A DNA stretch of 64,000 bases from the NCBI RefSeq assembly GCF_964204865.1, contig NC_135253.1, positions 22,170,001 to 22,234,000 of the forward strand, given 5' to 3'. The stretch's first letter is position 1; every line of letters starts with the position of its first letter. Under the pieces are notes generated by a model. It ran no database searches. It was given only the letters and a program-made list of their open reading frames with translations, and was not told the origin of the DNA. Shown in pieces: positions 1 to 64,000 of the stretch. The position numbers and the translations under genes were made by a program. The DNA is from Styela clava. Lineage: Eukaryota > Chordata > Ascidiacea > Stolidobranchia > Styelidae.

Positions 1-201
1 AACCTCTCGCAAATAACCATCCCTGCTTGGGATTCGAACTTGCAAACCCACGCAAGGTAATCAGAGGTGCGATGGCGAGCATAATCCAACGCCTAGAAGA
101 TGAGCACCACCTCCGAGGGGAGGACTCAAAATTCGAGCTATTGTATCTTCGAAATACTTATACGTGATGTTTGCGAATGAAGTAAGGAAATGATAAACCC
201 T
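1..201. repeat. Partial S1 spacer at window edge
   Basis: Right part of an S1 spacer, beginning at the conserved aacctctcgc block and running through the B-box module and shared core to the Val-U gene at 202. Confidence 0.85.
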
Positions 202-274
202 TGTTTCCGCCCGGGCTCGAACCGGGGACCTTTCGCGTGTAAAGCGAACGTGATAACCACTACACTACGGAAAC
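202..274 (-). tRNA. tRNA-Val-UAC
   Basis: Consensus Val-U body: 7-bp acceptor, T loop TTCGAGC, anticodon loop TTTACAC (anticodon UAC), A73. Pairing is complete in all four stems. Confidence 0.93.
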
Positions 275-579
275 GCTCGCCACTAGAAGGCAATTGATAA
301 AACTGTTCACTCTTGTTCATATAATACCCTCAAAAACTTCCGAGTTTCCAGTCGCAAGAATTTTCACAGACAGCCGTCACGCTTATCGGATTAAAAACCT
401 TGTTCCCATAAATCCACGCAAGGTAATCAGAGGTGCGATGGCGAGTGTATTCCAACGCCTAGAACGATGAGCAACACCTCCGAGGGGAGGACTCAAAATT
501 CGAGCTATTGTATGTTCTAAATACTTGTACGTGACGGTTGTCGTTACAAAAGAATTATGACAAAGTCAAATGGAGAGTT

Positions 580-652
580 TGTTTCCGCCCGGGCTCGAAC
601 CGGGGACCTTTCGCGTGTTAGGCGAACGTGATAACCACTACACTACGAAAAC
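580..652 (-). tRNA. tRNA-Val-AAC
   Basis: Val-A body with loop CTAACAC. Position 5 is T, giving a U-G wobble with 68 in the acceptor stem. Confidence 0.88.
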
Positions 653-904
653 TCCACGAGCCTAGGGGTGAATTTCTGCAATACATAATTCCCAAATTCC
701 CAAACCTCTCGCAAATAACCATCCCTGCTTGGGATTCGAACCTGCAAACCCACGCTAGGTAATCAGAGGTGCGATGGCGAGCATATTCCAACGCCTAGAA
801 CGATGAGCAACACCTCCGAGGGGAGGACTCAAAATTCGAGCTATTGTATCTTCGAAATACTTATACGTGATGTTTGCGAATGAAGTAAGGAAATGATAAA
901 CCCT

Positions 905-976
905 TGTTTCCGCCCGGGCTCGAACCGGGAACTTTCGCGTGTAAAGCGAACGTGATAACCACTACACTACGGAAAC
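905..976 (-). tRNA. tRNA-Val-UAC (72 nt)
   Basis: Val-U body with a one-base deletion leaving a 4-nt variable loop (AGTT). Stems remain paired. The same variant recurs at 2115. Confidence 0.85.
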
Positions 977-1281
977 GCTCGCCACTGGACGCCAATTGAT
1001 AAGACTGTTCACTCTTGTTTATATAATACCCTCAAAAACTTCCGATTTTCCAGTCGCAAGAATTTTCACAGACAGCCGTCACGCTTGGCGGATTAAAAAC
1101 CGTGTTCCCATAAACCCACGCAAGGTAATCAGAGGTGCGACGGCGAGTGTATTCCAACGCCTAGAACGATGAGCAACACTTCCGAGGGAAGGACTCAAAA
1201 TCCGAGCTATTGTATGTTCGAAATACTTATACGTGACGGTTGTCGATACAAAAGAATTATGACAAAGTCAAATGGAGGGTT

Positions 1282-1354
1282 TGTTTCCGCCCGGGCTCGA
1301 ACCGGGGACCTTTCGCGTGTTAGGCGAACGTGATAACCACTACACTACGGAAAC
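1282..1354 (-). tRNA. tRNA-Val-AAC
   Basis: Consensus Val-A body, loop CTAACAC. The right flank begins catacg rather than the usual tccacg or tacacg. Confidence 0.93.
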
Positions 1355-1448
1355 CATACGAGTCTAAAGGTGGATTTCTGCGATACATAATTCCCGAATT
1401 CTCAAACCTCTCGCAAATAACCATCCCCACGCAAGGTAATCAGCCAAG

Positions 1449-1484
1449 GTAAAGCGAACGTGATAACCACTACACTACGGAAAC
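1449..1484 (-). pseudogene. tRNA-Val-UAC 5' fragment
   Basis: Only body positions 1 to about 36 remain. The T arm and 3' acceptor strand are missing and replaced by S1 sequence (ccacgcaaggtaatcagcc). The fragment marks a recombination junction next to the 1210-bp repeat. Confidence 0.85.
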
Positions 1485-1789
1485 GCTCGCCACTGGACGC
1501 CAATTCGTAAGACTGTTCACTCTTGTTTATATAATACCCTCAAAAACTTCCGATTTTCCAGTCGCAAGAATTTTCACAGACAGCCGTCACGCTTGGCGGA
1601 TTAAAAACCGTGTTCCCATAAACCCACGCAAGGTAATCAGAGGTGCGACGGCGAGTGTATTCCAACGCCTAGAACGATGAGCAACACTTCCGAGGGAAGG
1701 ACTCAAAATCCGAGCTATTGTATGTTCTAAATACTTGTACGTGACGGTTGTCGATACAAAAGAGTTATGACAAAGTCAAATGGAGGGTT

Positions 1790-1862
1790 TGTTTCCGCCC
1801 GGGCTCGAACCGGGGACCTTTCCCGTGTTAGGCGAACGTGATAACCACTACACTACGAAAAC
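1790..1862 (-). tRNA. tRNA-Val-AAC, stem mismatch
   Basis: Val-A body. Position 5 T gives a wobble pair; position 40 C to G gives a G30-G40 mismatch in the anticodon stem. Copy of the gene at 580 (offset 1210). Confidence 0.75.
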
Positions 1863-2114
1863 TCCACGAGCCTAGGGGTGAATTTCTGCAATACATAATT
1901 CCCAAATTCCCAAACCTCTCGCAAATAACCATCCCTGATTGGGATTCGAACCTGCAAACCCACGCAAGGTAATCAGAGGTGCGATGGCGAGCATATTCCA
2001 ACGCCTAGAACGATGAGCAACACCTCCGAGGGGAGGACTCAAAATTCGAGCTATTGTATCTTCGAAATACTTATACGTGATGTTTGCGAATGAAGTAAGG
2101 AAATGATAAACCCT

Positions 2115-2186
2115 TGTTTCCGCCCGGGCTCGAACCGGGAACTTTCGCGTGTAAAGCGAACGTGATAACCACTACACTACGGAAAC
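2115..2186 (-). tRNA. tRNA-Val-UAC (72 nt)
   Basis: Same 4-nt variable-loop variant as at 905, offset 1210. Confidence 0.85.
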
Positions 2187-2491
2187 GCTCGCCACTGGAC
2201 GCCAATTGATAAGACTGTTCACTCTTGTTTATATAATACCCTCAAAAACTTCCGATTTTCCAGTCGCAAGAATTTTCACAGACAGCCGTCACGCTTGGCG
2301 GATTAAAAACCGTGTTCCCATAAACCCACGCAAGGTAATCAGAGGTGCGACGGCGAGTGTATTCCAACGCCTAGAACGATGAGCAACACTTCCGAGGGAA
2401 GGACTTAAAATCCGAGCTATTGTATGTTCGAAATACTTATACGTGACGGTTGTCGATACAAAAGAATTGTGACAAAGTCAAATGGAGGGTT

Positions 2492-2564
2492 TGTTTCCAC
2501 CCGGGCTCGAACTGGGGACCTTTCGCGTGTTAGGCGAACGTGATAACCACTACACTACGGAAAC
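2492..2564 (-). tRNA. tRNA-Val-AAC, chimeric flanks
   Basis: AAC body with the Val-A left flank but a Val-U-type right flank (gcttgccactgg). Position 66 T wobbles with G7. Position 52 A breaks a T-stem pair and the B box. Confidence 0.7.
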
Positions 2565-2652: not shown

Positions 2653-3657
2653 GGATATTATTTTGACAATATCTATTTTTTCCTCTTCTGCTGCCAATAA
2701 GTGGTTATGTACCACCTAGAACACCAGCATAATTTGAATTTTCTGCTGTAACATCAATGTTTCACTTTTGCTCATGGTATTTCTTTGTGTGAGTGTGTAA
2801 TTGAGATTGCTTTCACTGTTTTAATAAATGATTTTACACCTCCATGTTGCCTGCCAATATTGACAGTGTTTGGATATTGTTTTGGTAAATAGTTCCAATG
2901 TATATAGCTTTTTTGTGTTTTTTCCTGTGTTACTAGTCACTATTTTCTTCTAACATTGTCACGCATTGTTAGGTATTTGTATTCACAGCTATTGTCACTC
3001 TATTTTTATTCCCATTATTCAAAACTTCATGCTGCTTTTCAACCATGTATTTATTTATCTGTCTTGCACATTTGATAGGTTTTTGGTGATATTTTGCATT
3101 TCTGACAGCGAGCGATGTCTCCCATAGATTTTGACTTGTTTATTTCTATGCTATATAGGAATCTCAGACCCAAAATATACAGAATTCGAGATCAGCATTA
3201 TTTATATATATTTACTGCAAGGCTAATCCTGGCGATTTCTCAGCTACCATAATCGTATACGAACATTTGAAACATCTATCAGAGACGGAGGAGGTCGTTG
3301 GGATTCTATTACATTTAATTTTATCTACCTGAATTTTGCTGTCTTATTTCAAGCGCAACACTTATTTTACTCCATGTAAATTATCCACTGATTCAAGCAA
3401 TTATTTGGCTTTTATCATTTTAAATTGAGTTATAAGAACTGCCCGATTTTGAATCGTGTCCATATTTTTTTGTATAATCGTATTATTTCTATTTTATTTT
3501 TTGGTGGGTGGGCACGTACTTGTACGTTTTTTAACTTTATTTTAAGTTATGCTCGCCTTCCAGGTATCTCTGTATTTGTTGTTTGTTTACTTTTTTGTAT
3601 TGTTCCGTTTTAGTCAGAGAGCCGAAATAAAATGATTGATTGATTGATTGATTGATT
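2653..3657 (+). mobile_element. Non-LTR retroelement 3' fragment
   Basis: About 1 kb of AT-rich sequence unlike anything else in the window. It ends in AATAAA (3626-3631) and then about six TGAT units. It sits precisely inside an S2 spacer and is flanked by GAATT at 2648-2652 and 3658-3662, a likely target-site duplication. No reverse transcriptase, endonuclease or long frame is visible; the longest frame (3425-3613, 62 codons) looks non-coding. A short tandem 3' repeat instead of poly-A is typical of RTE-like elements (inference). It may be a 5'-truncated LINE or a SINE using one. Confidence 0.75.
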
Positions 3658-6559: not shown

Positions 6560-6598
6560 TGTTTCCGCCCGGGCTCGAACCGGGGACCTTTCGCGTGT

Positions 6599-6642
<44 letters not shown>

Positions 6643-6680
6643 GTGTAAAGCAAACGTGATAACCACTACACTACGGAAAC
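6560..6680 (-). pseudogene. tRNA-Val-UAC split by poly-T
   Basis: A run of 39 T (6602-6640 on +, poly-A on the tRNA strand) interrupts the gene at the anticodon loop. GCGTGTAAA is present on both sides (6593-6601 and 6641-6649). This looks like insertion of a poly-A tail with a 9-bp target-site duplication. The 39 T on the template side would be A in the transcript, so it is not a terminator. Confidence 0.85.
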
Positions 6681-10185: not shown

Positions 10186-10440
10186 GGATATTTGCGAGAA
10201 GTTTGGGAATTTGGGAATTATGTATCGCAGAAATCCACCCCTAGGCTCGTGGAGTTTCCGTAGTGTAGCGGTTATCACGTTCGCCTAACACGCGAAAGGT
10301 CCCCGGTTCGAGCCCGGGCGGAAACAAACCCTCCATTTGACTTTGTCATAATTCTTTTGTATCGACAACCGGCACGAATAAGTATTTCAAACATACAATA
10401 GCTCGGATTTTGAGTCAGTCCTCCCCTCGGAAGTGTTGCT
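10186..10440. other. Inverted array segment
   Basis: About 255 bp of S1-left, Val-A and S2-right sequence lies reverse-complemented relative to the rest of the array. The left edge follows cagccttcacgc; the right edge follows ctcggaagtgttgct, after which S1 resumes at agggatggattt. Confidence 0.9.
10254..10326 (+). tRNA. tRNA-Val-AAC (inverted)
   Basis: The only plus-strand tRNA in the window. Complete Val-A body with D-loop position 16 C and A73. Stems paired. Confidence 0.92.
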
Positions 10441-32699: not shown

Positions 32700-32993
32700 G
32701 CTCGCCACTGGATGCCAATTGCTAAGACTGTTCACTCTTGTTTATATAATACCCTCAAAAACTTCCGAGTTTCCAGTCGCAAGAATTTTCACAGACAGCC
32801 GTCACGCTTGGCGGATTAAAAACCTTGTTCCCATAAACCCACGCAAGGTAATCAGAGGTGCGATGGCGAGTGTATTCCAACGCCTAGAACGATGAGCAAC
32901 ACCTCCGACGGGAGGACTCAAAATTCGAGCTATTGTATCTTTGAAATACTTATACGTGTTGTTTGTGAATGAAGTAAGGAAATAATAAACCCT

Positions 32994-33066
32994 TGTTTCC
33001 GCGCGGGCTCGAACCGGGGACCTTTCGCGTGTAAAGCGAACGTGATAACCACTACACTACGGAAAC
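32994..33066 (-). tRNA. tRNA-Val-UAC, 64C subfamily
   Basis: Copy of 31215 (offset 1779). It directly follows another Val-U: the junction of the 1779-bp duplication falls in the S2/S1 shared core near 32880-32930. Confidence 0.72.
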
Positions 33067-33374
33067 GCTCGCCACTGGATGCCAATTGATAAGACTGTTC
33101 ACTCTTGTTTACATAATACCCTCAAAAACTTCCGAGTTTCCAGTCGCAAGAATTTTCACAGACAGCCGTCACGCTTGGCGGATTAAAAACCTTGTTCCCA
33201 TAAACCCACGCAAGGTAATCAGAGGTGCGATGGCGAGTGTATTCCAACGCCTAGAACGATGAGCAACACCTCCGAGGGGAGGACTGACTCAAAATCCGGG
33301 CTATTGTATGTTCTAAATACTTGTACGTGACGTTGTTGATAAAAAAGAATTATGACAAAGTCAAATGTAGGGTT

Positions 33375-33447
33375 TGTTTCCGCCCGTGCTCGAACCGGGG
33401 ACCTTTCGCGTGTTAGGCAAACGTGATAACCACTACACTACGGAAAC
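33375..33447 (-). tRNA. tRNA-Val-AAC, 61A subfamily
   Basis: Copy of 31596 (offset 1779). Confidence 0.7.
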
Positions 33448-33699
33448 TACGCGAGCCTAGGTGTGGATTTCTGCGATACATAATTCCCAAATTTCCAAAC
33501 CTCTCGCAAATAACCATCCCTGCTTGGGCTTCGAACCTGCGAACCCACGCAAGGTAATCAGATATGCGGTGGCGAGCGTATTCCAACGCCTAGAACGATG
33601 AGCAACACCTCCGACGGGAGGACTCAAAATTCGAGCTATTGTATCTTTGAAATACTTATACGTGATGTTTGTGAATGAAGTAAGGAAATAATAAACCCT

Positions 33700-33772
33700 T
33701 GTTTCCGCCCGGGCTCGAACCGGGGACCTTTCGCGTGTAAAGCGAACGTGATAACCACTACACTACGGAAAC
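33700..33772 (-). tRNA. tRNA-Val-UAC
   Basis: Consensus; copy of 31921 (offset 1779). Confidence 0.93.
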
Positions 33773-34080
33773 GCTCGCCACTGGATGCCAATTGATAAGA
33801 CTGTTCACTCTTGTTTATATAATACCCTCAAAAACTTCCGAGTTTCCAGTCGCAAGAATTTTCACAGACAGCCGTCACGCTTGGCGGATTAAAAACCTTG
33901 TTCCCATAAACCCACGCAAGGTAATCAGAGGTGCGATGGCGAGTGTATTCCAACGCCTAGAACGATGAGCAACACCTCCGAGGGGAGGACTGACTCAAAA
34001 TCCGGGCTATTGTATGTTCTAAATACTTGTACGTGACGTTGTTAATAAAAAAGAATTATGACAAAGTCAAATATAGGGTT

Positions 34081-34153
34081 TGTTTCCGCCCGTGCTCGAA
34101 CCGGGGACCTTTCGCGTGTTAGGCGAACGTGATAACCACTACACTACGGAAAC
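34081..34153 (-). tRNA. tRNA-Val-AAC, 61A subfamily
   Basis: Copy of 32302 (offset 1779). Confidence 0.72.
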
Positions 34154-34405
34154 TACGCGAGCCTAGGTGTGGATTTCTGCGATACATAATTCCCAAATTT
34201 CCAAACCTCTCGCAAATAACCATCCCTGCTTGGGCTTCGAACCTGCGAACCCACGCAAGGTAATCAGAGATGCGGTGGCGAGCGTATTCCAACGCCTAGA
34301 ACGATGAGCAACACCTCCGACGGGAGGACTCAAAATTCGAGCTATTGTATCTTTGAAATACTTATACGTGTTGTTTGTGAATGAAGTAAGGAAATAATAA
34401 ACCCT

Positions 34406-34478
34406 TGTTTCCGCGCGGGCTCGAACCGGGGACCTTTCGCGTGTAAAGCGAACGTGATAACCACTACACTGCGGAAAC
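34406..34478 (-). tRNA. tRNA-Val-UAC, 64C subfamily
   Basis: Copy of 32627 (offset 1779): 64 C and 8 C. Confidence 0.62.
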
Positions 34479-34786
34479 GCTCGCCACTGGATGCCAATTG
34501 CTAAGACTGTTCACTCTTGTTTATATAATACCCTCAAAAACTTCCGAGTTTCCAGTCGCAAGAATTTTCACAGACAGCCGTCACGCTTGGCGGATTAAAA
34601 ACCTTGTTCCCATAAACCCACGCAAGGTAATCAGAGGTGCGATGGCGAGTGTATTCCAACGCCTAGAACGATGAGCAACACCTCCGAGGGGAGGACTGAC
34701 TCAAAATCCGGGCTATTGTATGTTCTAAATACTTGTACGTGACGTTGTTGATAAAAAAGAATTATGACAAAGTCAAATGTAGGGTT

Positions 34787-34859
34787 TGTTTCCGCCCGTG
34801 CTCGAACCGGGGACCTTTCGCGTGTTAGGCGAACGTGATAACCACTACACTACGGAAAC
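34787..34859 (-). tRNA. tRNA-Val-AAC, 61A subfamily
   Basis: Position 61 A only. Confidence 0.72.
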
Positions 34860-35111
34860 TACGCGAGCCTAGGTGTGGATTTCTGCGATACATAATTCCC
34901 AAATTTCCAAACCTCTCGCAAATAACCATCCCTGCTTGGGCTTCGAACCTGCGAACCCACGCAAGGTAATCAGAGATGCGGTGGCGAGCGTATTCCAACG
35001 CCTAGAACGATGAGCAACACCTCCGACGGGAGGACTCAAAATTCGAGCTATTGTATCTTTGAAATACTTATACGTGATGTTTGTGAATGAAGTAAGGAAA
35101 TAATAAACCCT

Positions 35112-35184
35112 TGTTTCCGCCCGGGCTCGAACCGGGGACCTTTCGCGTGTAAAGCGAACGTGATAACCACTACACTACGGAAAC
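35112..35184 (-). tRNA. tRNA-Val-UAC
   Basis: Consensus Val-U body; used here as the reference unit. Confidence 0.94.
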
Positions 35185-35492
35185 GCTCGCCACTGGATGC
35201 CAATTGATAAGACTGTTCACTCTTGTTTATATAATACCCTCAAAAACTTCCGAGTTTCCAGTCGCAAGAATTTTCACAGACAGCCGTCACGCTTGGCGGA
35301 TTAAAAACCTTGTTCCCATAAACCCACGCAAGGTAATCAGAGGTGCGATGGCGAGTGTATTCCAACGCCTAGAACGATGAGCAACACCTCCGAGGGGAGG
35401 ACTGACTCAAAATCCGGGCTATTGTATGTTCTAAATACTTGTACGTGAAGTTGTTGATAAAAAAGAATTATGACAAAGTCAAATGTAGGGTT
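35185..35492. repeat. S2 spacer, reference copy
   Basis: Begins gctcgccactgg. Contains a TATA-like site on the minus strand, gtcgcaagaattttcacagac, the cgtcacgcttggcgg block, then the core shared with S1 (cccacgcaaggtaatcagag to cttgtacgtga) and the Val-A left flank ending in agggttt. All regular S2 copies follow this order. Confidence 0.9.
35226..35234 (-). promoter_or_regulatory. TATA-like site upstream of Val-U
   Basis: TTATATAAA on the tRNA strand, 42-50 nt upstream of the Val-U gene at 35112. Present in most S2 copies. In many S2 copies that lead into L blocks the site reads gtgtatttaata instead. Function unproven. Confidence 0.4.
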
Positions 35493-35565
35493 TGTTTCCG
35501 CCCGTGCTCGAACCGGGGACCTTTCGCGTGTTAGGCGAACGTGATAACCACTACACTACGGAAAC
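35493..35565 (-). tRNA. tRNA-Val-AAC, 61A subfamily
   Basis: Position 61 A only. Confidence 0.72.
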
Positions 35566-35817
35566 TACGCGAGCCTAGGTGTGGATTTCTGCGATACATA
35601 ATTCCCAAATTTCCAAACCTCTCGCAAATAACCATACCTGCTTGGGCTTCGAACCTGCGAACCCACGCAAGGTAATCAGAAATGCGGTGGCGAGCGTATT
35701 CCAACGCCTAGAACGATGAGCAACACCTCCGACGGGAGGACTCAAAATTCGAGCTATTGTATCTTTGAAATACTTATACGTGATGTTTGTGAATGAAGTA
35801 AGGAAATAATAAACCCT
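35566..35817. repeat. S1 spacer, reference copy with B-box module
   Basis: Begins tacgcgagcctagg. On the minus strand it contains GGTTCGAAGCC (B-box match; GGTTCGAATCC in older copies) about 55 nt after a loose A-box-like stretch (TAGGCGTTGG). No acceptor or T-stem pairing can be drawn, so it is a tRNA-derived or SINE-head-like module, not a tRNA gene. The core to its right is shared with S2. Confidence 0.75.
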
Positions 35818-35890
35818 TGTTTCCGCCCGGGCTCGAACCGGGGACCTTTCGCGTGTAAAGCGAACGTGATAACCACTACACTACGGAAAC
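35818..35890 (-). tRNA. tRNA-Val-UAC
   Basis: Consensus Val-U body. Confidence 0.93.
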
Positions 35891-36198
35891 GCTCGCCACT
35901 GGATGCCAATTGATAAGACTGTTCACTCTTGTTTATATAATACCCTCAAAAACTTCCGAGTTTCCAGTCGCAAGAATTTTCACAGACAGCCGTCACGCTT
36001 GGCGGATTAAAAACCTTGTTCCCATAAACCCACGCAAGGTAATCAGAGGTGCGATGGCGAGTGTATTCCAACGCCTAGAACGATGAGCAACACCTCCGAG
36101 GGGAGGACTGACTCAAAATCCGGGCTATTGTATGTTCTAAATACTTGTACGTGACGTTGTTGATAAAAAAGAATTATGACAAAGTCAAATGTAGGGTT

Positions 36199-36271
36199 TG
36201 TTTCCGCCCGGGCTCGAACCGGGGACCTTTCGCGTGTTAGGCGAACGTGATAACCACTACACTACGGAAAC
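36199..36271 (-). tRNA. tRNA-Val-AAC
   Basis: Consensus Val-A body. Confidence 0.93.
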
Positions 36272-36523
36272 TACGCGAGCCTAGGTGTGGGTTTCTGCGA
36301 TACATAATTCCCAAATTTCCAAACCTCTCGCAAATAACCATCCCTGCTTGGGATTCGAACCTGCAAACCCACGCAAGGTAATCAGAGGTGCGATGGCGAG
36401 CGTATTCCAAGGCCTAGAACGATGAGCAACACCTCCGAGGGGAGGACTCAAAATTCGAGCTATTGTATCTTTGAAATACTTATACGTGATGTTTGTGAAT
36501 GAAGTAAGGAAATGATAAACCCT

Positions 36524-36596
36524 TGTTTCCGCCCGGGCTCGAACCGGGGACCTTTCGCGTGTAAAGCGAACGTGATAACCACTACACTACGGAAAC
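36524..36596 (-). tRNA. tRNA-Val-UAC
   Basis: Consensus Val-U body. Confidence 0.93.
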
Positions 36597-36732
36597 GCTT
36601 ACCGCTGGAAGGCAATTGATAAGACTCTTCACTCTTGTGTATTTAATACCCTCAAAAACTTCCGAGTTTCCAGTCGCAAGAATTTTCACAGACAGCCGTC
36701 ACGCTTGGCGATTTAAAAACCGTGTTCCCATA

Positions 36733-37106
36733 ATTAAAAGGTGATACAGCGCAATTTTGGATGAAATATCAGATCTCATACGATTCAAAGAAAATTTAGG
36801 AATAAATCAAAGTAATATCTTTCTGACAAAAAAATCAATCTTTCACCACTAAACATTTCAAAGCAATTGGTCTAGTATTCAAAGAGAAAAGCGAATATAT
36901 CATGACGAAGAAGAAGGACATCAACAAGAACAACAACATAATATCAAAACGATTCAACGGTCCACGTGTCCAATAAGATAACAACGAGTCGCTCAGACAC
37001 TTCTTTCTCATGATTTCCACGCATTGTTGTTGTTGTTGCCTTTGTTTTTGTGGCTTTGCGTGTTATTTGTCAGTTTTCATACAAGTTTTCAAAAAAAAAA
37101 GTGGTA
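36733..37106. repeat. L block
   Basis: Full L block; minus-strand frame 36835-37020 in the common form. Confidence 0.88.
37091..37100 (-). terminator. Oligo-T Pol III terminator
   Basis: T10, 26 nt past the gene at 37127. Confidence 0.66.
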
Positions 37107-37126
37107 GTAAGGAAATGATAAACCCT

Positions 37127-37199
37127 TGTTTCCGCCCGGGCTCGAACCGGGGACCTTTCGCGTGTAAAGCGAACGTGATAACCACTACACTACGGAAAC
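37127..37199 (-). tRNA. tRNA-Val-UAC
   Basis: Consensus Val-U body. Confidence 0.94.
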
Positions 37200-37508
37200 G
37201 CCCGCCACTGGACGTCAATTGATAAGACTGTTCACTCTTGTTTATATAATACCCTCAAAAACTTCCGAGTTTCCAGTCGCAAGAATTTTCACAGACAGCC
37301 GACACGCTTGGCGGATTAAAAACCTTGTTCCCATAAACCCACGCAAAGTAATCAGAGGTGCGATGGCGAGTGTATTCCAACGCCTAGAACGATGAGCAAC
37401 ACCTCCGAGGGGAGGACTGACTCAAAATCCGAGCTATGGTATGTTCTAAATACTTGTACGTGACGGTTGTCGATACAAAAGAATTATGACAAAGTCAAAT
37501 GGAGGGTT

Positions 37509-37581
37509 TGTTTCCGCCCGAGCTCGAACCTGGGACCTTTCGCGTGTTAGGCGAACGTGATAACCACTACACTACGGAAAC
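37509..37581 (-). tRNA. tRNA-Val-AAC, T-stem mismatch
   Basis: Position 51 A mismatches G63; position 61 T wobbles with G53. Confidence 0.68.
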
Positions 37582-37833
37582 TCCACGAGCCTAGGGGTGA
37601 ATTTCTGCAAAACATAATTCCCAAATTTCCAAACCTCTCGCAAATACCCATCCCTGCTTGGGATTCGAACCTGCAAACCCACGCAAGGTAATCAGAGGTG
37701 CGGTGGCGAGCGTATTCCAACGCCTAGAACGATGAGCAACACTTCCGACGGGAGGACTCAAAATTCGAGCTATTGTATCTTTGAAATACTTAAACGTGAT
37801 GTTTGTGAATGAAGTAAGGTAATAATAAACCCT

Positions 37834-37906
37834 TGTTTCCGCCCGGGCTCGAACCGGGGACCTTTCGCGTGTAAAGCGAACGTGATAACCACTACACTAC
37901 GGAAAC
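37834..37906 (-). tRNA. tRNA-Val-UAC
   Basis: Consensus Val-U body. Confidence 0.93.
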
Positions 37907-38214
37907 GCTCGCCACTGGATGCCGATTGATAAGACTGTTCACTCTTGTTTATATAATACCCTCAAAAACTTCCGAGTTTCCAGTCGCAAGAATTTTCACA
38001 GACAGCCGTCACGCTTGGCGGATTAAAAACCTTGTTCCCATAAATCCACGCAAGGTAATCAGATGTGCGATGGCGAGTGTATTCAACGCCTAGAACGATG
38101 AGCAACACCTCCGAGGGGAGGACTGACTCAAAATCCGAGCTATTGTATGTTCTAAATACTTGTACGTGACGGTTGTCGATACAAAGGAATTATGACAAAG
38201 TCAAATATAGGGTT

Positions 38215-38287
38215 TGTTTCAACCCGGGCTCGAACCGGGGACCTTTCGCGTGTTAGGCGAACGTGATAACCACTGCACTACGGAAAC
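38215..38287 (-). tRNA. tRNA-Val-AAC, acceptor mismatch
   Basis: Position 66 T wobble and 67 T mismatch with C6; position 13 C. Confidence 0.66.
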
Positions 38288-38539
38288 TACGCGAGCCTAG
38301 GTGTGGATTTCTGCGATACATAATTCCCAAATTTCCAAACCTCTCGCAAATAACCATCCCTGCTTGGGCTTCGAACCTGCGAACCCACGCAAGGTAATCA
38401 GAGATGCGGTGGCGAGCGTATTCCAACGCCTAGAACGATGAGCAACACCTCCGATGGGAGGACTCAAAATTCGAGCTATTGTATCTTTGAAATACTTATA
38501 CGTGATGTTTGTGAATGAAGTAAGGAAATAATAAACCCT

Positions 38540-38612
38540 TGTTTCCGCCCGGGCTCGAACCGGGGACCTTTCGCGTGTAAAGCGAACGTGATAACCACTA
38601 CACTACGGAAAC
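38540..38612 (-). tRNA. tRNA-Val-UAC
   Basis: Consensus Val-U body. Confidence 0.93.
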
Positions 38613-38920
38613 GCTCGCCACTGGATGCCAATTGATAAGACTGTTCACTCTTGTTTATATAATACCCTCAAAAACTTCCGAGTTTCCAGTCGCAAGAATT
38701 TTCACAGACAGCCGTCACGCTTGGCGGATTAAAAACCTTGTTCCCATAAACCCACGCAAGGTAATCAGAGGTGCGATGGCGAGTGTATTCCAACGCCTAG
38801 AACGATGAGCAACACCTCCGAGGGGAGGACTGACTCAAAATCCGGGCTATTGTATGTTCTAAATACTTGTACGTGACGTTGTTGATAAAAAAGAATTATG
38901 ACAAAGTCAAATGTAGGGTT

Positions 38921-38993
38921 TGTTTCCGCCCGGGCACGAACCGGGGACCTTTCGCGTGTTAGGCGAACGTGATAACCACTACACTACGGAAAC
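38921..38993 (-). tRNA. tRNA-Val-AAC, A58 lost
   Basis: T-loop A58 changed to T (loop TTCGTGC), removing a universally conserved base that is also in the B box. Confidence 0.66.
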
Positions 38994-39237
38994 TACGCGA
39001 GCCTAGGTGTGGATTTCTGCGATACATAATTCCCAAACCTCTCGCAAATAACCATCCCTGCTTGGGATTCGAACCTGCAAACCCACGCAAGGTAATCAGA
39101 GGTGCGATGGCGAGCGTATTTCAAGGCCTAGAACGATGAGCAACACCTCCGAGGGGAGGACTCAAAATTCGAGCTATTGTATCTTCGAAATACTTATACG
39201 TGATGTTTGTGAATGAAGTAAGGAAATGATGAACCTT

Positions 39238-39310
39238 TGTTTCCGCCCGGGCTCGAACCGGGGACCTTTCGCGTGCAAAGCGAACGTGATAACCACTACA
39301 CTACGGAAAC
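39238..39310 (-). tRNA. Val-body tRNA with UGC (Ala) anticodon
   Basis: Otherwise consensus Val-U body with loop TTTGCAC: position 35 A to G changes the anticodon from UAC to UGC. The acceptor has T3-A70, not the G3-U70 pair that alanyl-tRNA synthetase requires. The change also removes A35, a main valine identity base. All stems are intact. Duplicate at 50840. Confidence 0.9.
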
Positions 39311-39446
39311 GCTCACCACTGGACGGCAATTGATAAGACTGTTCACTCTTGTGTATTTAATACCCTCAAAAACTTCCGAGTTTCCAGTCGCAAGAATTTT
39401 CACAGACAGCCGTCACGCTTGGCGGATTAAAAACCGTGTTCCCATA

Positions 39447-39825
39447 ATTAAAAGGTGATACAGCGCAATTTTGGATGAAATATCAGATCTCATACGATTC
39501 ATAGAAAATTTAGGAATAAATCAAAGTAATATCCTTCTGACAAAAAAATCAATCTTTCACCACTAAACATTTCAAAGCAATTGGTCTAGTATTCAAAGAG
39601 AAAAGCGAATATATCATGACGAAGAAGAATGACATCAACAAGAACAACAACATGATATCAAAACGATTCAACGGTCCACGTGTCCAATAAGACAACAACG
39701 AGTCGCTCAGACACTTCTTTCGCATGATTTCCACGCATTGTTGTTGTTGTTGTTGTTGCCTTTGTTTTTGTGGCTTTGCGTGTTATTTGTCAGTTTTCCT
39801 ACAAGTTTTCAAAAAAAAAGTGGTA
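39447..39825. repeat. L block
   Basis: Full L block with 7 TTG units; minus-strand frame 39549-39734. Confidence 0.88.
39811..39819 (-). terminator. Oligo-T Pol III terminator
   Basis: T9, 26 nt past the gene at 39846. Confidence 0.65.
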
Positions 39826-47800: not shown

Positions 47801-47873
47801 TGTTTCCGCCCGGGCTCGAACCGGGGACCTTTCGCGTGTTAGGCGAACGTGATAACCACTACACTACGGAAAC
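47801..47873 (-). tRNA. tRNA-Val-AAC
   Basis: Consensus; copy of 36199. Confidence 0.93.
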
Positions 47874-48125: not shown

Positions 48126-48198
48126 TGTTTCCGCCCGGGCTCGAACCGGGGACCTTTCGCGTGTAAAGCGAACGTGATAACCACTACACTACGGAAAC
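48126..48198 (-). tRNA. tRNA-Val-UAC
   Basis: Consensus; copy of 36524. Confidence 0.93.
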
Positions 48199-48334
48199 GC
48201 TTACCGCTGGAAGGCAATTGATAAGACTCTTCACTCTTGTGTATTTAATACCCTCAAAAACTTCCGAGTTTCCAGTCGCAAGAATTTTCACAGACAGCCG
48301 TCACGCTTGGCGATTTAAAAACCGTGTTCCCATA

Positions 48335-48708
48335 ATTAAAAGGTGATACAGCGCAATTTTGGATGAAATATCAGATCTCATACGATTCAAAGAAAATTTA
48401 GGAATAAATCAAAGTAATATCTTTCTGACAAAAAAATCAATCTTTCACCACTAAACATTTCAAAGCAATTGGTCTAGTATTCAAAGAGAAAAGCGAATAT
48501 ATCATGACGAAGAAGAAGGACATCAACAAGAACAACAACATAATATCAAAACGATTCAACGGTCCACGTGTCCAATAAGATAACAACGAGTCGCTCAGAC
48601 ACTTCTTTCTCATGATTTCCACGCATTGTTGTTGTTGTTGCCTTTGTTTTTGTGGCTTTGCGTGTTATTTGTCAGTTTTCATACAAGTTTTCAAAAAAAA
48701 AAGTGGTA
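48335..48708. repeat. L block
   Basis: Copy of 36733-37106. Confidence 0.88.
48693..48702 (-). terminator. Oligo-T Pol III terminator
   Basis: T10, 26 nt past the gene at 48729. Confidence 0.66.
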
Positions 48709-48728
48709 GTAAGGAAATGATAAACCCT

Positions 48729-48801
48729 TGTTTCCGCCCGGGCTCGAACCGGGGACCTTTCGCGTGTAAAGCGAACGTGATAACCACTACACTACGGAAA
48801 C
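48729..48801 (-). tRNA. tRNA-Val-UAC
   Basis: Consensus; copy of 37127. Confidence 0.94.
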
Positions 48802-49110
48802 GCCCGCCACTGGACGTCAATTGATAAGACTGTTCACTCTTGTTTATATAATACCCTCAAAAACTTCCGAGTTTCCAGTCGCAAGAATTTTCACAGACAG
48901 CCGACACGCTTGGCGGATTAAAAACCTTGTTCCCATAAACCCACGCAAAGTAATCAGAGGTGCGATGGCGAGTGTATTCCAACGCCTAGAACGATGAGCA
49001 ACACCTCCGAGGGGAGGACTGACTCAAAATCCGAGCTATGGTATGTTCTAAATACTTGTACGTGACGGTTGTCGATACAAAAGAATTATGACAAAGTCAA
49101 ATGGAGGGTT

Positions 49111-49183
49111 TGTTTCCGCCCGAGCTCGAACCTGGGACCTTTCGCGTGTTAGGCGAACGTGATAACCACTACACTACGGAAAC
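49111..49183 (-). tRNA. tRNA-Val-AAC, T-stem mismatch
   Basis: Copy of 37509. Confidence 0.68.
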
Positions 49184-49435
49184 TCCACGAGCCTAGGGGT
49201 GAATTTCTGCAAAACATAATTCCCAAATTTCCAAACCTCTCGCAAATACCCATCCCTGCTTGGGATTCGAACCTGCAAACCCACGCAAGGTAATCAGAGG
49301 TGCGGTGGCGAGCGTATTCCAACGCCTAGAACGATGAGCAACACTTCCGACGGGAGGACTCAAAATTCGAGCTATTGTATCTTTGAAATACTTAAACGTG
49401 ATGTTTGTGAATGAAGTAAGGTAATAATAAACCCT

Positions 49436-49508
49436 TGTTTCCGCCCGGGCTCGAACCGGGGACCTTTCGCGTGTAAAGCGAACGTGATAACCACTACACT
49501 ACGGAAAC
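49436..49508 (-). tRNA. tRNA-Val-UAC
   Basis: Consensus; copy of 37834. Confidence 0.93.
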
Positions 49509-49816
49509 GCTCGCCACTGGATGCCGATTGATAAGACTGTTCACTCTTGTTTATATAATACCCTCAAAAACTTCCGAGTTTCCAGTCGCAAGAATTTTCA
49601 CAGACAGCCGTCACGCTTGGCGGATTAAAAACCTTGTTCCCATAAATCCACGCAAGGTAATCAGATGTGCGATGGCGAGTGTATTCAACGCCTAGAACGA
49701 TGAGCAACACCTCCGAGGGGAGGACTGACTCAAAATCCGAGCTATTGTATGTTCTAAATACTTGTACGTGACGGTTGTCGATACAAAGGAATTATGACAA
49801 AGTCAAATATAGGGTT

Positions 49817-49889
49817 TGTTTCAACCCGGGCTCGAACCGGGGACCTTTCGCGTGTTAGGCGAACGTGATAACCACTGCACTACGGAAAC
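49817..49889 (-). tRNA. tRNA-Val-AAC, acceptor mismatch
   Basis: Copy of 38215. Confidence 0.66.
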
Positions 49890-50141
49890 TACGCGAGCCT
49901 AGGTGTGGATTTCTGCGATACATAATTCCCAAATTTCCAAACCTCTCGCAAATAACCATCCCTGCTTGGGCTTCGAACCTGCGAACCCACGCAAGGTAAT
50001 CAGAGATGCGGTGGCGAGCGTATTCCAACGCCTAGAACGATGAGCAACACCTCCGATGGGAGGACTCAAAATTCGAGCTATTGTATCTTTGAAATACTTA
50101 TACGTGATGTTTGTGAATGAAGTAAGGAAATAATAAACCCT

Positions 50142-50214
50142 TGTTTCCGCCCGGGCTCGAACCGGGGACCTTTCGCGTGTAAAGCGAACGTGATAACCAC
50201 TACACTACGGAAAC
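50142..50214 (-). tRNA. tRNA-Val-UAC
   Basis: Consensus; copy of 38540. Confidence 0.93.
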
Positions 50215-50522
50215 GCTCGCCACTGGATGCCAATTGATAAGACTGTTCACTCTTGTTTATATAATACCCTCAAAAACTTCCGAGTTTCCAGTCGCAAGAA
50301 TTTTCACAGACAGCCGTCACGCTTGGCGGATTAAAAACCTTGTTCCCATAAACCCACGCAAGGTAATCAGAGGTGCGATGGCGAGTGTATTCCAACGCCT
50401 AGAACGATGAGCAACACCTCCGAGGGGAGGACTGACTCAAAATCCGGGCTATTGTATGTTCTAAATACTTGTACGTGACGTTGTTGATAAAAAAGAATTA
50501 TGACAAAGTCAAATGTAGGGTT

Positions 50523-50595
50523 TGTTTCCGCCCGGGCACGAACCGGGGACCTTTCGCGTGTTAGGCGAACGTGATAACCACTACACTACGGAAAC
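50523..50595 (-). tRNA. tRNA-Val-AAC, A58 lost
   Basis: Copy of 38921. Confidence 0.66.
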
Positions 50596-50839
50596 TACGC
50601 GAGCCTAGGTGTGGATTTCTGCGATACATAATTCCCAAACCTCTCGCAAATAACCATCCCTGCTTGGGATTCGAACCTGCAAACCCACGCAAGGTAATCA
50701 GAGGTGCGATGGCGAGCGTATTTCAAGGCCTAGAACGATGAGCAACACCTCCGAGGGGAGGACTCAAAATTCGAGCTATTGTATCTTCGAAATACTTATA
50801 CGTGATGTTTGTGAATGAAGTAAGGAAATGATGAACCTT

Positions 50840-50912
50840 TGTTTCCGCCCGGGCTCGAACCGGGGACCTTTCGCGTGCAAAGCGAACGTGATAACCACTA
50901 CACTACGGAAAC
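50840..50912 (-). tRNA. Val-body tRNA with UGC (Ala) anticodon
   Basis: Copy of 39238 (offset 11602): same loop TTTGCAC on a valine body. Confidence 0.9.
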
Positions 50913-51048
50913 GCTCACCACTGGACGGCAATTGATAAGACTGTTCACTCTTGTGTATTTAATACCCTCAAAAACTTCCGAGTTTCCAGTCGCAAGAATT
51001 TTCACAGACAGCCGTCACGCTTGGCGGATTAAAAACCGTGTTCCCATA

Positions 51049-51430
51049 ATTAAAAGGTGATACAGCGCAATTTTGGATGAAATATCAGATCTCATACGAT
51101 TCATAGAAAATTTAGGAATAAATCAAAGTAATATCCTTCTGACAAAAAAATCAATCTTTCACCACTAAACATTTCAAAGCAATTGGTCTAGTATTCAAAG
51201 AGAAAAGCGAATATATCATGACGAAGAAGAATGACATCAACAAGAACAACAACATGATATCAAAACGATTCAACGGTCCACGTGTCCAATAAGACAACAA
51301 CGAGTCGCTCAGACACTTCTTTCGCATGATTTCCACGCATTGTTGTTGTTGTTGTTGTTGCTTTTGTTATTTGTGGCTTTGCGTGTTATTTGTCAGTTTT
51401 CATACAAGTTTTCAAAAAAAAAAAGTGGTA
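51049..51430. repeat. L block
   Basis: Left part copies 39447-39825; the right part differs (cttttgttatttgtgg), marking the end of the large duplication near 51350. Confidence 0.88.
51414..51424 (-). terminator. Oligo-T Pol III terminator
   Basis: T11, 26 nt past the gene at 51451. Confidence 0.67.
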
Positions 51431-59440: not shown

Positions 59441-59460
59441 GTAAGGAAATGATAAACCCT

Positions 59461-60570: not shown

Positions 60571-60591
60571 AGTAAGGAAATAATAAACCCT

Positions 60592-62256: not shown

Positions 62257-62277
62257 AGTAAGGAAATAATAAACCCT

Positions 62278-62350
62278 TGTTTCCGCCCGGGCTCGAACCG
62301 GGGACCTTTCTCGTGTAAAGCGAACGTGATAACCACTACACGACGTAAAC
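62278..62350 (-). tRNA. tRNA-Val-UAC, mismatches
   Basis: Position 5 A, 9 C and 40 A (A40 against G30). Confidence 0.6.
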
Positions 62351-62660
62351 GCTCGCCACTGGACGCCAATTGATAAGACTGTTCACTCTTGTTTATATAA
62401 TACCCTCAAAAACTTCCGAGTTTCCAGTCGCAAGAATTTTAACAGACAGCCGTCACGCTTGGCGGATTAGAAAACCTTGTTCCCATAAACCCACGCAAGG
62501 TAATCAGAGGTGCGATGGCGAGTGTATTCCAACGCCTAGAACGATGAGCAACAACTCCGAGGGGAGGACTGACTCAAAATCCGAGCTATTGTATGTTCTA
62601 AATACTTGTACGTGACGGTTGTCAATACAAAAAAATTATGACAAAGTCAAATGGAGGGTT

Positions 62661-62733
62661 TGTTTCCGCCCGGGCTCGAACCGGGGACCTTTCGCGTGTT
62701 AGGCGAACGTGATAACCACTACACTACGGAAAC
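62661..62733 (-). tRNA. tRNA-Val-AAC
   Basis: Consensus Val-A body. Confidence 0.93.
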
Positions 62734-62790
62734 TACACGAGCCTAGGTGTGGATTTCTGCGATAAATAATTCAAAGTCAAATGGAGGGTT

Positions 62791-62863
62791 TGTTTCCGCC
62801 CGGTCTCGAACCGGGGACCTTTCGCGTGTTAGGCGAACGTGATAACCACTACACTACGGAAAC
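62791..62863 (-). tRNA. tRNA-Val-AAC
   Basis: Val-A body with 60 A, only 57 bp from the gene at 62661, the closest full pair in the window. Confidence 0.9.
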
Positions 62864-63115
62864 TACACGAGCCTAGGTGTGGATTTCTGCGATACTTAAT
62901 TCCCAAATTTCCAAACCTCTCGCAAATAACCATCCCTGCTTGGGATTCGAACCGGCAAACCCACGCAAGGTAATCAGAGGTGCGATGGCGAGCGTATTCC
63001 AACGCCTAGAACGATGAGCAACATCTCCGACGGGAGGACTCAAAATTTGAGCTATTGTATCTTTGAAATACTTATACGTGATGTTTGTGAATGAAGTAAG
63101 GAAATGATGAACCTT

Positions 63116-63188
63116 TGTTTCCGCCCGGGATCGAACCGGGGACCTTTTGCGTGTAAAGCGAACGTGATAACCACTACACTACGGAAAC
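63116..63188 (-). tRNA. tRNA-Val-UAC, chimeric flanks
   Basis: UAC body with Val-U left flank and Val-A right flank (tacacgagcctag). Position 41 A mismatches C29; T-loop 59 T. Confidence 0.7.
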
Positions 63189-63290
63189 TACACGAGCCTA
63201 GGGATGGATTTCTGCGATACATAATACTATTGTATCTTCGAAATACTTATAGGTGATGTTTGTGAATGAAGTAAGGAAATGATAAACCCA

Positions 63291-63363
63291 TGTTTCCGCC
63301 CGGGCTCGAACCGGGGACCTTTCGCGTGTTAAGCGAACGCGATAACCACTACACTACGGAAAC
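63291..63363 (-). tRNA. tRNA-Val-AAC derived from Val-U
   Basis: Copy of 60018 (offset 3273), loop TTAACAC. Confidence 0.87.
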
Positions 63364-63499
63364 GCTCGCCCCTAGACGCCAATTGATAAGACTGTTCACT
63401 CTTGGATATATAATACCCTCAAAAACTTCCTAGTTTCCAGTCGCAAGAATTTTCACAGACAGCCGTCACGCTTGGCGGATTAAAAACCGTGTTCCCATA

Positions 63500-63849
63500 A
63501 TTAAAAGGTGTAACAGCGCAATTTTGGATGAAATATCAGATCTCATACGATTCATAGAAAATTTAGGAATAAATCAAAGTAATATCCTTCTGACAAAAAA
63601 ATCAATCTTCCACCACTAAACATTTCAAAGCAATTGGTCTAGTATTCAAAGAGAAAAGCGAATATATCATAACGAAGAAGAAGTACATCAACAAGAACAA
63701 CAACATAATATCAAAACGATTCAACGGTCCACGTGTCCAATAAGACAACAACGAGTCGCTCAGACACTTCTTTCGCATGATTTCCAAGCATTGTTGTTGT
63801 TGTTGTTGTTGTTGCCTTTGTTTTTGTGGCTTTCAAAAAAAAAAGTGGG
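63500..63849. repeat. L block, internally deleted
   Basis: Copy of 60227-60570 with a longer TTG tract (about 8 units). Confidence 0.87.
63835..63844 (-). terminator. Oligo-T Pol III terminator
   Basis: T10, 26 nt past the gene at 63871. Confidence 0.66.
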
Positions 63850-63870
63850 AGTAAGGATATAATAAACCCT

Positions 63871-63943
63871 TGTTTCCGCCCGGGCTCGAACCGGGGACCT
63901 TTCGCGTGTAAAGCGAACGTGATAACCACTACACGACGTAAAC
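63871..63943 (-). tRNA. tRNA-Val-UAC, acceptor mismatch
   Basis: Position 5 A and 9 C; copy of 60592 (offset 3273). The window ends in the S2 to its right. Confidence 0.72.
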
Positions 63944-64000
63944 GCTCGCCACTAGACGCCAATTGATAAGACTGTTCACTCTTGTCCATATAATACCCTC

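Follow-up and report, generated by a model that had tools for sequence, protein, structure and literature searches.

A 64,000-nucleotide stretch of the Styela clava genome (hereafter the window; C4:22170001-22234000, numbered 1..64000) forms the right-hand portion of an array of 358 tRNA genes, mainly on the minus strand, that occupies 155,769 bp (C4:22078886-22234654). We consider it fairly probable that this is a nuclear, rDNA-like tandem of tRNA-Val genes under concerted evolution, one that its sequence marks as probably functional and in which single copies would be dispensable. The array carries two signals at once: near-free decay of single copies, yet a lesser spread of changes in the tRNA bodies than in one spacer class.

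Extent and composition of the array

A preliminary description reported about 160 tRNA bodies and seven fragments, and both counts agree with the present ones. ARAGORN finds 159 tRNA genes in the window (82 with anticodon UAC, 75 with AAC and two with TGC), and BLAST finds seven body fragments, starting at 1449, 7882, 18820, 25570, 52334, 54038 and 54820. One further minus-strand body (6560..6680; BLAST, TRF) is split by 39 A's with a 9-bp duplication on either side, and a minus-strand body at 7874 was not called by ARAGORN. The stated length of at least 64 kb is borne out and exceeded: the array extends over 155.8 kb, about 0.04% of the assembly, and its right end lies 654 bases past the window. 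The 264 kb of joined sequence contains no N, and there are no tRNA genes in the flanking 48.9 kb on the left and 59.3 kb on the right.

The genes were said to be arranged head to tail, which holds for 158 of the 159 window genes, all on the minus strand, and fails for a single plus-strand gene at 10254..10326; across the array, 356 of 358 genes point the same way. All bodies in the window are tRNA-Val, as claimed, but two carry the alanine anticodon UGC (A35 to G; 39238..39310 and its duplicate at 50840-50912, minus strand, by ARAGORN and BLAST), and the altered body occurs twice because it lies inside a 7.9-kb duplication with an offset of 11,602 bp. By anticodon, 355/358 genes of the whole array are Val; the rest, two UGC and one UAU, are Val bodies with one anticodon base altered, and they break the strict form of the same-amino-acid rule of Bermudez-Santana 2010. 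The spacing of a homogeneous cluster in that scheme, less than 1,000 nt between adjacent tDNAs, is found only inside each of six blocks delimited by five longer gaps (4999, 1157, 1362, 5984 and 1320 nt). The number of anticodons, given as two, needs correction: UAC and AAC dominate the window, but a third Val anticodon, CAC, is present in 38/358 genes of the array, none of them within the window.

Of 151 Rfam matches in the window at gathering score, the 150 listed all belong to RF00005 (50.3-67.6 bits; gathering score 29). The claim that the window has no other gene thus stands insofar as there is no non-tRNA Rfam family among the matches listed, and has to be qualified for a single open frame that reaches 110 aa or more and a 1-kb insert inside a spacer (2653..3657, plus strand). 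The insert ends in (TGAT)n, shows by eye an end duplication of ~4 bp and is retroelement-like, resembling a truncated element. In the window, Tandem Repeats Finder reports repeats whose periods range from 130 to 456 bp, besides a TGAT run and a poly-T (one each), without short intergenic repeats of the Entamoeba histolytica type; a search for three TTAGGG units on both strands found no telomeric repeats there. A COX1 search gave no match.

The UAC and AAC body consensus sequences differ at positions 32 and 34 only, and 114/358 bodies are unchanged outside these positions. The UAC consensus is exemplified at 33700..33772 (67.1 bits in Rfam; 36 exact copies in the window) and the AAC consensus at 1282..1354 (64.9 bits; 29 exact minus-strand copies in the window), both on the minus strand. 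Loose box A and box B patterns were found in 151/159 and 130/159 bodies of the window set, respectively. Three bodies folded in isolation did not reach a significant energy (z between -0.87 and -1.19), and the structure therefore rests on the Rfam model.

Cassettes, joining core and downstream T runs

Each unit consists of a gene cassette (leader, tRNA and trailer) and a joining core common to all types. There are two cassette types, UAC/CAC and AAC, whose leaders and trailers, unlike their bodies, mostly align poorly with one another. Bodies lie within their own leader and trailer in 303/354 scored cases (UAC 166/184, AAC 104/129); CAC bodies are found in UAC-type flanks in 33/38 cases, and CAC is probably a derivative of the UAC cassette type.

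The anticodons had been described as alternating, and the tendency is strong: among 159 minus-strand bodies, including that at 7874 and leaving out the plus-strand gene, 118/158 neighbouring pairs alternate, whereas shuffled orders give an expectation of 79.2 and, in 10,000 trials, no more than 107. The same count rules out strict alternation. In the array-wide set of 355 intervals, junctions with the core and without element C (see below) lead from UAC trailer to AAC leader in 100 cases and from AAC to UAC in 93, with 82 UAC to UAC and 18 AAC to AAC. UAC-UAC spacers are too frequent (82/355) to be rare recombinants, and because of this frequency a cassette-plus-core view fits better.

The standard spacer A (e.g., 33448..33699, minus strand, 252 bp) comprises the UAC trailer, the SINE-like core and the AAC leader, with TATGTA mostly at -35 of that leader. 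Spacer B (e.g., 33067..33374, minus strand, 308 bp) comprises the AAC trailer, the core and the UAC leader, with a TATTATATAA-like motif mostly at -52/-49. Downstream of some UAC genes, the core is replaced by element C (e.g., 36734..37126, minus strand), which brings a T8-T11 run; the window contains 18 stretches of it of 343-401 bp and two of 196 bp, and diverged copies are also present in the array flanks. In the window set, AAC genes have a run of T4 or longer at 20-29 nt downstream in 61/74 cases, whereas among 83 UAC genes the first T4 lies at 70-79 nt in 54, a T8-T11 run at 20-29 nt in 18 and a T4 at 0-9 nt in seven. A T4 run 70-79 nt downstream is a poor terminator. The distant T4 of these 54/83 UAC genes, together with the 185/358 bodies that fail our own rule for intactness (173/358 pass), is at odds with the reading preferred here.

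To judge from its sequence, the core corresponds to the 5' part of a SINE-like repeat with dispersed copies; that of spacer A (33520..33610, minus strand) includes a box-B-like part. The best 40 scored of 1095 first-look candidates for the core all fall within the array, where there are 323 core matches, and diverged copies occur in both flanks. Pairwise alignments among six right-flank copies of the repeat span 233-332 bp at 64-97%, and three of these copies are 96-97% alike and contain GGTTCGAATCC. The flank repeat thus has the dispersed copies, box B and common body of a tRNA-derived SINE. Sampled Lys and Cys arrays of the same genome yielded no match to the core or to the SINE-like repeat. 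A known RNA as the identity of the core, and a prokaryotic, plasmid or phage origin of the sequence, were both rejected: a lax Rfam search over 1.5 kb returned tRNA and five chance-level snoRNA/mascRNA rows, and the dimer had no match in phages or plasmids. Viral contigs contained no exact match to either of two patterns, one from the core and one from a body, and a genome-contig collection contained none to the core.

A core of this kind in most standard spacers could also mean that the units are mobile copies of a tRNA-Val SINE rather than tandem gene duplicates. The 107.5 kb of flanks, however, contain no Val body, though the SINE-like repeat is dispersed there, and the units are head to tail with common junctions, nearly all on one strand. 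A mobile origin of the units is therefore largely refuted, and we give it almost no credence.

Growth of the array and decay of its copies

The preliminary suggestion of a satellite-like expansion is well supported by permuted cassettes, by two large duplications (7.9 kb at 99.6% and 7.5 kb at 99.1%) and by the greater likeness of neighbouring spacers: in the window, A spacers separated by fewer than three units diverge by 3.3% (22 pairs), and those at least 30 units apart by 5.7% (758 pairs). It had also been feared that the array might be an expansion introduced by assembly, a concern that the sequence answers in part. Within the larger duplication lies an exact 6,888-bp repeat (32872..39759 and 44474-51361), which may stem from assembly or from haplotype duplication, and more than half of the 100-mers in the window are non-unique. 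Part of the length might thus be a false duplication of a shorter genuine array, but this is improbable: 117/159 window units are distinct over the body and 100 bp on either side, the anticodon mix and the divergence shift along the gap-free array, and subtracting an 11.6-kb block would still leave more than 140 kb.

Mean divergence is ~1.6% in UAC and AAC bodies and 3.7% in A spacers. A test of spread over the whole array took in the 252-bp A spacers, the UAC bodies and the AAC bodies (342 of 356 minus-strand bodies, the others not being 73 nt long); spacer B, which comes in several length classes (308 bp in 27 cases, 309 bp in 22), was excluded. Variable sites arise at 0.473 per bp in bodies and 0.540 in spacer A, and each is shared by 2.28 copies in bodies against 4.69 in spacer A after deduplication (n=64; median p 0.004, an optimistic value given linked sites and one spacer class), or by 2.80 against 6.10 without it. 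Body mutations thus arise nearly as often as those in spacer A and reach about half as many copies. The 294-bp spacers, with 0.325 variable sites per bp (one misaligned of 52 dropped), are close to the bodies at 0.316 and 0.314 (n=35), which counts against the preferred reading. Within spacer A, variability is highest in the AAC leader (0.625 variable sites per bp, each shared by 8.8 copies), which speaks against promoter constraint there. Strong purifying selection on every copy is ruled out, since changes at paired positions retain the pair as often as the spacer spectrum of the window predicts (17/72 distinct changes in the whole array and 11/47 in the window, against 24%); 154 bodies contained no compensatory double changes.

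Unconstrained stem pairing in single copies, the 185 bodies that fail the intactness rule and the high variability of the AAC leader would all suit a mostly silent, tRNA-derived satellite that was amplified through its recombination behaviour, with valine tRNA supplied by other loci, e.g., on C5. There are candidates for such loci: of 350 exact Val-core matches, 113 fall beyond the region fetched, including some on C1, C5 and C14. There is also a possible parallel in the Arabidopsis SYY cluster, likewise composed of tandem-duplicated tRNA genes for few amino acids, which is silenced in most tissues; it differs in comprising Ser and Tyr genes and in being active in root cap cells, as far as the consulted part of that study goes (PMC12308677). 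Against silence stand the body changes that spread half as far as those in spacer A, the bodies that still match the consensus and CpG that is not depleted (the observed/expected ratio is 1.28 for the array, compared with 0.89 and 0.97 for its flanks). We regard a silent satellite as unlikely, though deserving of serious attention. A role in tRNA dosage, as first proposed, is plausible by sequence: it is favoured indirectly by the restricted spread of body changes and by a stretch resembling the AAC leader that precedes two of four Val genes in the C5 sample.

Genes for tRNA are able to act as barriers, and the array could in principle be retained as a chromatin boundary or insulator. CTCF binds the human 1q23.3 tRNA repeat, also a large tRNA-bearing tandem repeat of variable length (9-43 units), whose 7.3-kb GC-rich, CTCF-bound units differ from those described here in that tRNA genes make up less than 6% of the unit, according to the portion of the report consulted (PMC4041453). 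A crude CTCF-core pattern has no site in the window, a result of little weight for this host. We hold an insulator role to be very improbable. In the right flank, four of six pieces have no Rfam match at E 0.5; one of four flank frames encodes a DDE transposase.

For the functional, concertedly evolving tandem favoured here, the following course may be proposed. Each cassette would consist of a short leader with a TATA-like motif, a body that carries box A and box B internally, and a trailer, and a 5' fragment of the dispersed SINE-like repeat would link it to the next. Judging by the junctions and duplications, unequal exchange and segmental duplication via identical bodies and shared cores may grow, shrink and permute the array. 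RNA polymerase III probably transcribes at least some copies, which would supply valine isoacceptors. Individual copies would be dispensable and decay, while the consensus of the array would persist because changed bodies rarely spread; this limited spread is presumably due to selection rather than conversion.

Comparable arrays and wider significance

The array is unusual in general, as the preliminary description held, but not unique, either among organisms or in its own genome. Samples of the latter contain a Lys array (22 genes in 17 kb), a Cys array (10 genes in 6 kb) and a 5S array on C14 (47/47 scored, from 13568 candidates), so that other tRNAs and small RNAs are arrayed alongside valine, as in Hydractinia. 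Tandem arrays or large clusters of tRNA genes are reported, in the parts of the literature consulted, for Hydractinia, Nematostella, zebrafish, stickleback and Entamoeba. A close likeness is to the cnidarian arrays, which share near-identical copies set at roughly even distances, spacers that resemble one another, several tRNAs and 5S arrayed per genome, and tens to hundreds of copies; Nematostella has clusters of fifty and more in which, unlike in the Styela array, pairs mostly mix amino acids, and the consulted parts of these papers describe neither SINE-like spacers nor two isoacceptor cassettes (PMC11067881, PMC2888827).

Entamoeba also has tandem tRNA arrays, uniform per isolate, for which the authors suggested concerted evolution; there, units hold up to five tRNAs, some with 5S, and in E. 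histolytica short tandem repeats separate the genes and the arrays exceed 10% of the genome, in contrast to the single amino acid and SINE-like spacers of Styela (PMC2652664, in part). Plant tandem clusters similarly have neighbouring tRNA genes within 1 kb of each other, mainly of one anticodon, in numbers from 2 to 110, but identical ones reach 26 genes and the part of the source consulted describes no SINE-like joint (PMC12652284). Zebrafish shares the very high tRNA copy number; its array includes snRNA genes, and the work, as consulted, concerns transposons in RNA genes, the Dada targets (PMC3706591). In the flat oyster genome, the consulted text gives tRNA-Ser numbers as high yet unclustered (PMC9679248). 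A literature search that covered few subscription papers found no description of this Val array.

Such arrays are thus already known in a few organisms, and the Styela array is a large and unusually readable case of growth and decay. The question for any single-amino-acid tRNA array is whether its copy number is selected for dosage or drifts like a satellite; here, many units carry diagnostic variants, among them UAC variants that recur 13, 7 and 7 times and the UGC and UAU anticodons, and sequencing of mature tRNA could tell the used copies apart. The SINE-like core common to the cassettes suggests how such arrays may begin and reshuffle. Besides the tRNA body it is the sole sequence that the otherwise unlike isoacceptor cassettes have in common, and for this reason it is proposed as a recombination hook: by capture of a SINE fragment, one tRNA gene might have become an array that expands by itself, an idea we put forward as speculative and rather doubtful. 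If true, the core would set both the copy number and the UAC:AAC:CAC ratio, different hooks would play the parallel part in the Lys and Cys arrays sampled, and the supply of tRNA could be adjusted by rearrangement, much as in rDNA.

Extent and gene content of the array

The valine tRNA array is real and is a very large array devoted to a single amino acid. In the 376.6-Mb assembly (379 contigs) the window occupies C4:22170001-22234000; joined to 140 kb on its left and 60 kb on its right, it yields 264 kb of sequence free of N bases, in which one array extends from C4 22,078,886 to 22,234,654 (155,769 bp). It comprises 358 tRNA genes, 356 of them on the minus strand: 186 carry the Val anticodon UAC, 131 AAC and 38 CAC, and Val bodies with UGC (Ala) and UAU (Ile) anticodons account for two and one, respectively. 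ARAGORN calls no tRNA outside the array in 48.9 kb on the left or 59.3 kb on the right. Five intergenic gaps exceed 1 kb, one of them inside the window, and the biggest (5.0 and 6.0 kb) both fall in the left part. The 38 CAC genes are confined to the part of the array left of the window; bodies there are also more diverged, with 1.3-2.3 changes each (means of 10-kb bins), as against 0.8-1.2 within the window. A 6-kb interruption occupies C4:22131794-22137778; its right end may be akin to tRNA-Ser-derived sequence, which it resembles by eye. In the left flank, a minus-strand frame at C4:22037808-22038800 encodes a DDE transposase domain (PF13359, E 2.2e-35).

Within the window, ARAGORN identifies 159 tRNA genes (82 UAC, 75 AAC, 2 UGC), 158 on the minus strand, with a median start-to-start distance of 381 bp. 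Rfam reports 151 matches that reach the gathering score of 29; the 150 listed are all tRNA, with scores of 50.3-67.6 bits. The preliminary description of a Val-only array with two alternating anticodons holds for the bulk of these genes: 118 of 158 neighbouring pairs alternate between UAC and AAC, with 79.2 expected and a maximum of 107 in 10,000 shuffles. Alternation is not strict, however, and two genes bear UGC. The seven tRNA fragments it counted were recovered, besides one body split by poly(A).

The UGC genes (window 39238-39310 and 50840-50912) are Val bodies with a single base change and sit in two copies of one duplicated block; the UAU body is at C4:22144209-22144281. Such anticodon shifts could potentially produce mistranslating tRNAs if expressed. 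At window 6560-6680, 39 A's interrupt a tRNA body between copies of a 9-bp duplication, such as a retrotransposition event leaving only poly(A) would produce. An AT-rich 1-kb insert at 2653-3657, with a TGAT repeat at its end and a duplication of ~4 bp seen by eye, may represent a non-LTR retroelement 3' end.

Cassettes joined by a SINE-like core

UAC genes are followed by spacer A (252 bp) and AAC genes by spacer B (about 308 bp); the two share a nearly identical central core of roughly 80 bp, are similar for some 45 bp ahead of it and differ elsewhere. With CAC bodies scored against the UAC context, 303 of 354 bodies across the whole array stand in their own context (UAC 166/184, CAC 33/38, AAC 104/129); therefore, the unit is a gene cassette of leader, tRNA and trailer; there are two types of it, and the core joins one cassette to the next. 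The UAC and AAC body consensus sequences are identical save at positions 32 and 34, and CAC seems to derive from the UAC cassette.

By its sequence matches, the core is assigned to the 5' part of a dispersed repeat, termed SINE-like. Diverged core copies occur in the flanks (eight matches right, one left): six of the right-flank copies give pairwise alignments of 233-332 bp at 64-97% identity, and three, 96-97% alike, contain the box B motif GGTTCGAATCC. In the window, box B is scored in 57 of 60 A-type and 0 of 61 B-type spacers. A nearly full-length copy inside the array (C4:22106278-22106591), matching a flank copy at 96.5%, is a later insertion. Behind some UAC and CAC genes the core is replaced by a second element, element C, diverged relatives of which are also present in the flanks (five matches right, two left).

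Transcription signals were scored on the 159 minus-strand bodies of the window, including one, at 7874, that ARAGORN does not call. A loose box A is found in 151 and box B in 130; a TATA-like motif lies near -50 in 69 of 83 UAC leaders and at -35 in 55 of 74 AAC leaders. Runs of T4 or longer are located 20-29 nt downstream of 61/74 AAC genes. Among the 83 UAC genes, the first T4+ run is at 70-79 nt in 54, T8-T11 occurs at 20-29 nt in 18 and T4 within 0-9 nt in 7; the one element C copy examined also has a T8-T11 run. The CpG observed/expected ratio reaches 1.28 in the array, compared with 0.89 and 0.97 in its two flanks and 1.11 in the window spacers alone; these values do not suggest heavy germline methylation of the array.

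Duplication, probable exchange and tests of selection

Classified by flank type, the 355 intervals include, with the core and no element C, 100 that lead from a UAC trailer to an AAC leader, 93 from AAC to UAC, 82 from UAC to UAC and 18 from AAC to AAC. Out-of-context bodies, one kind of which (eight cases) combines a UAC leader with an AAC body and trailer, point to exchange within the tRNA body. Large duplications in the window measure 7.9 kb (99.6% identity) and 7.5 kb (99.1%); the former contains an exact 6,888-bp stretch (window 32872-39759 and 44474-51361), which is either a very recent duplication, a haplotype duplication or an assembly artefact. Window A spacers fewer than 3 units apart differ by 3.3% (22 pairs) and those at least 30 units apart by 5.7% (758 pairs). 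Junctions, duplications and spacer distances fit unequal exchange, segmental duplication and local homogenisation, the events themselves being reconstructed from these traces.

Does selection maintain the bodies? Several results count against function of single copies: 17 of 72 distinct changes at paired positions (24%) keep the pair in the whole array, and both this and the window's 11 of 47 (p = 1) match the 0.240 predicted from the window's spacer mutation spectrum. Window bodies show no compensatory double changes, 65 of 154 have a broken pair, and only 173 of the array's 358 are intact if this is defined as 73 nt in length with all stems, box B and U8-A9 present. Lower variation at non-CpG positions (bodies 24/110 vs spacers 172/497 in one random subsample of the window, p 0.009) speaks for function; window CpG positions do not differ (17/36 vs 31/64).

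The density of variable sites also counts against function: at n = 35 it is 0.316 per bp in UAC and 0.314 in AAC bodies, below the 0.389 of A spacers but close to the 0.325 of 294-bp spacers (1 of 52 dropped). How far changes spread speaks for function. After duplicate removal, the densities are 0.473 for bodies and 0.540 for spacer A, with 2.28 vs 4.69 copies per change (median p 0.004, optimistic because sites are linked). Body changes thus originate at near the spacer A rate and achieve about half the spread. Against function, spacer A is most variable in the AAC leader, with 0.625 variable sites per bp and 8.8 copies for each (0.51-0.52 and 4.5-5.8 in the rest). By contrast, the 20-bp bins of spacer B that start at 241 and 261, in the TATA-bearing part of the UAC leader, show 0.9 and 1.7% change and rank among the lowest of that spacer. 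The low spread is best explained by selection that hinders changed copies from spreading, with consensus-biased conversion as an alternative.

Other arrays and known relatives

Genome-wide, an exact 32-base Val pattern has 350 matches, and its reversed control none: 237 are in the fetched region and 113 elsewhere, including one on C1 and, for CAC, three on C5 at 0.82-0.87 Mb and one on C14. A second Val locus, C5:822653-868358, uses both strands and other spacers. A 6-kb sample of it (862501-868500) has four Val genes on both strands, two preceded by an AAC-leader-like stretch (77 and 88% identity), with a single SINE-like copy and fragments of element C; the core unit is absent between its Val genes.

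The genome-wide tRNA family search scored 63 of 32,363 candidates. The 17 kb sampled on C2 (15895001-15905000 and 15935001-15942000) contain tRNA genes of one kind, 22 of Lys-UUU; the 6-kb sample of C10 (6887001-6893000) contains ten Cys-GCA genes plus one opposite-strand call and shows periods of 511 and 1224 bp. No copy of the core or of the SINE-like repeat was detected in these samples, and their spacers do not match those of the Val array. From this sample, isotype-specific arrays seem to be a recurrent feature of this genome. All 47 5S matches scored, of 13,568 candidates, fall at C14:1.615-1.807 Mb, in a 5S rRNA array (C14:1615493-1806602) of some 190 kb with many neighbours about 1.3 kb apart. 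High-scoring tRNAs, ~45 kb apart if more than one, also appear on small contigs (C54, C98, C154, C191, C216, C296, C318). C54:11501-13500 (2 kb) packs nine tRNAs of different isotypes tightly, and its matches to a phage collection are, among the 20 listed, all confined to the tRNA stretch; these contigs may be a contaminant, prokaryotic or phage, that was assembled into concatemers.

Large tRNA arrays or clusters are already known, as the cited parts of published accounts describe. In Hydractinia, the tRNAs of all 20 amino acids have tandem arrays, each with tens to hundreds of copies; Nematostella carries tRNA, 5S and U5 arrays (PMC11067881), and its >17,000 tRNA genes and pseudogenes are 89% clustered, mostly as mixed pairs, with some clusters of fifty and more (PMC2888827). 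Further relatives are the Entamoeba arrays (PMC2652664), plant clusters of up to 110 genes (PMC12652284), the Arabidopsis SYY cluster (PMC12308677), the human 1q23.3 repeat (PMC4041453) and zebrafish tRNA genes (PMC3706591). Neither a SINE-like joint nor a pair of isoacceptor cassettes is described in the cited portions of these accounts. As read from its sequence, the Val array of S. clava is most likely an rDNA-like multigene array whose copies would work collectively.
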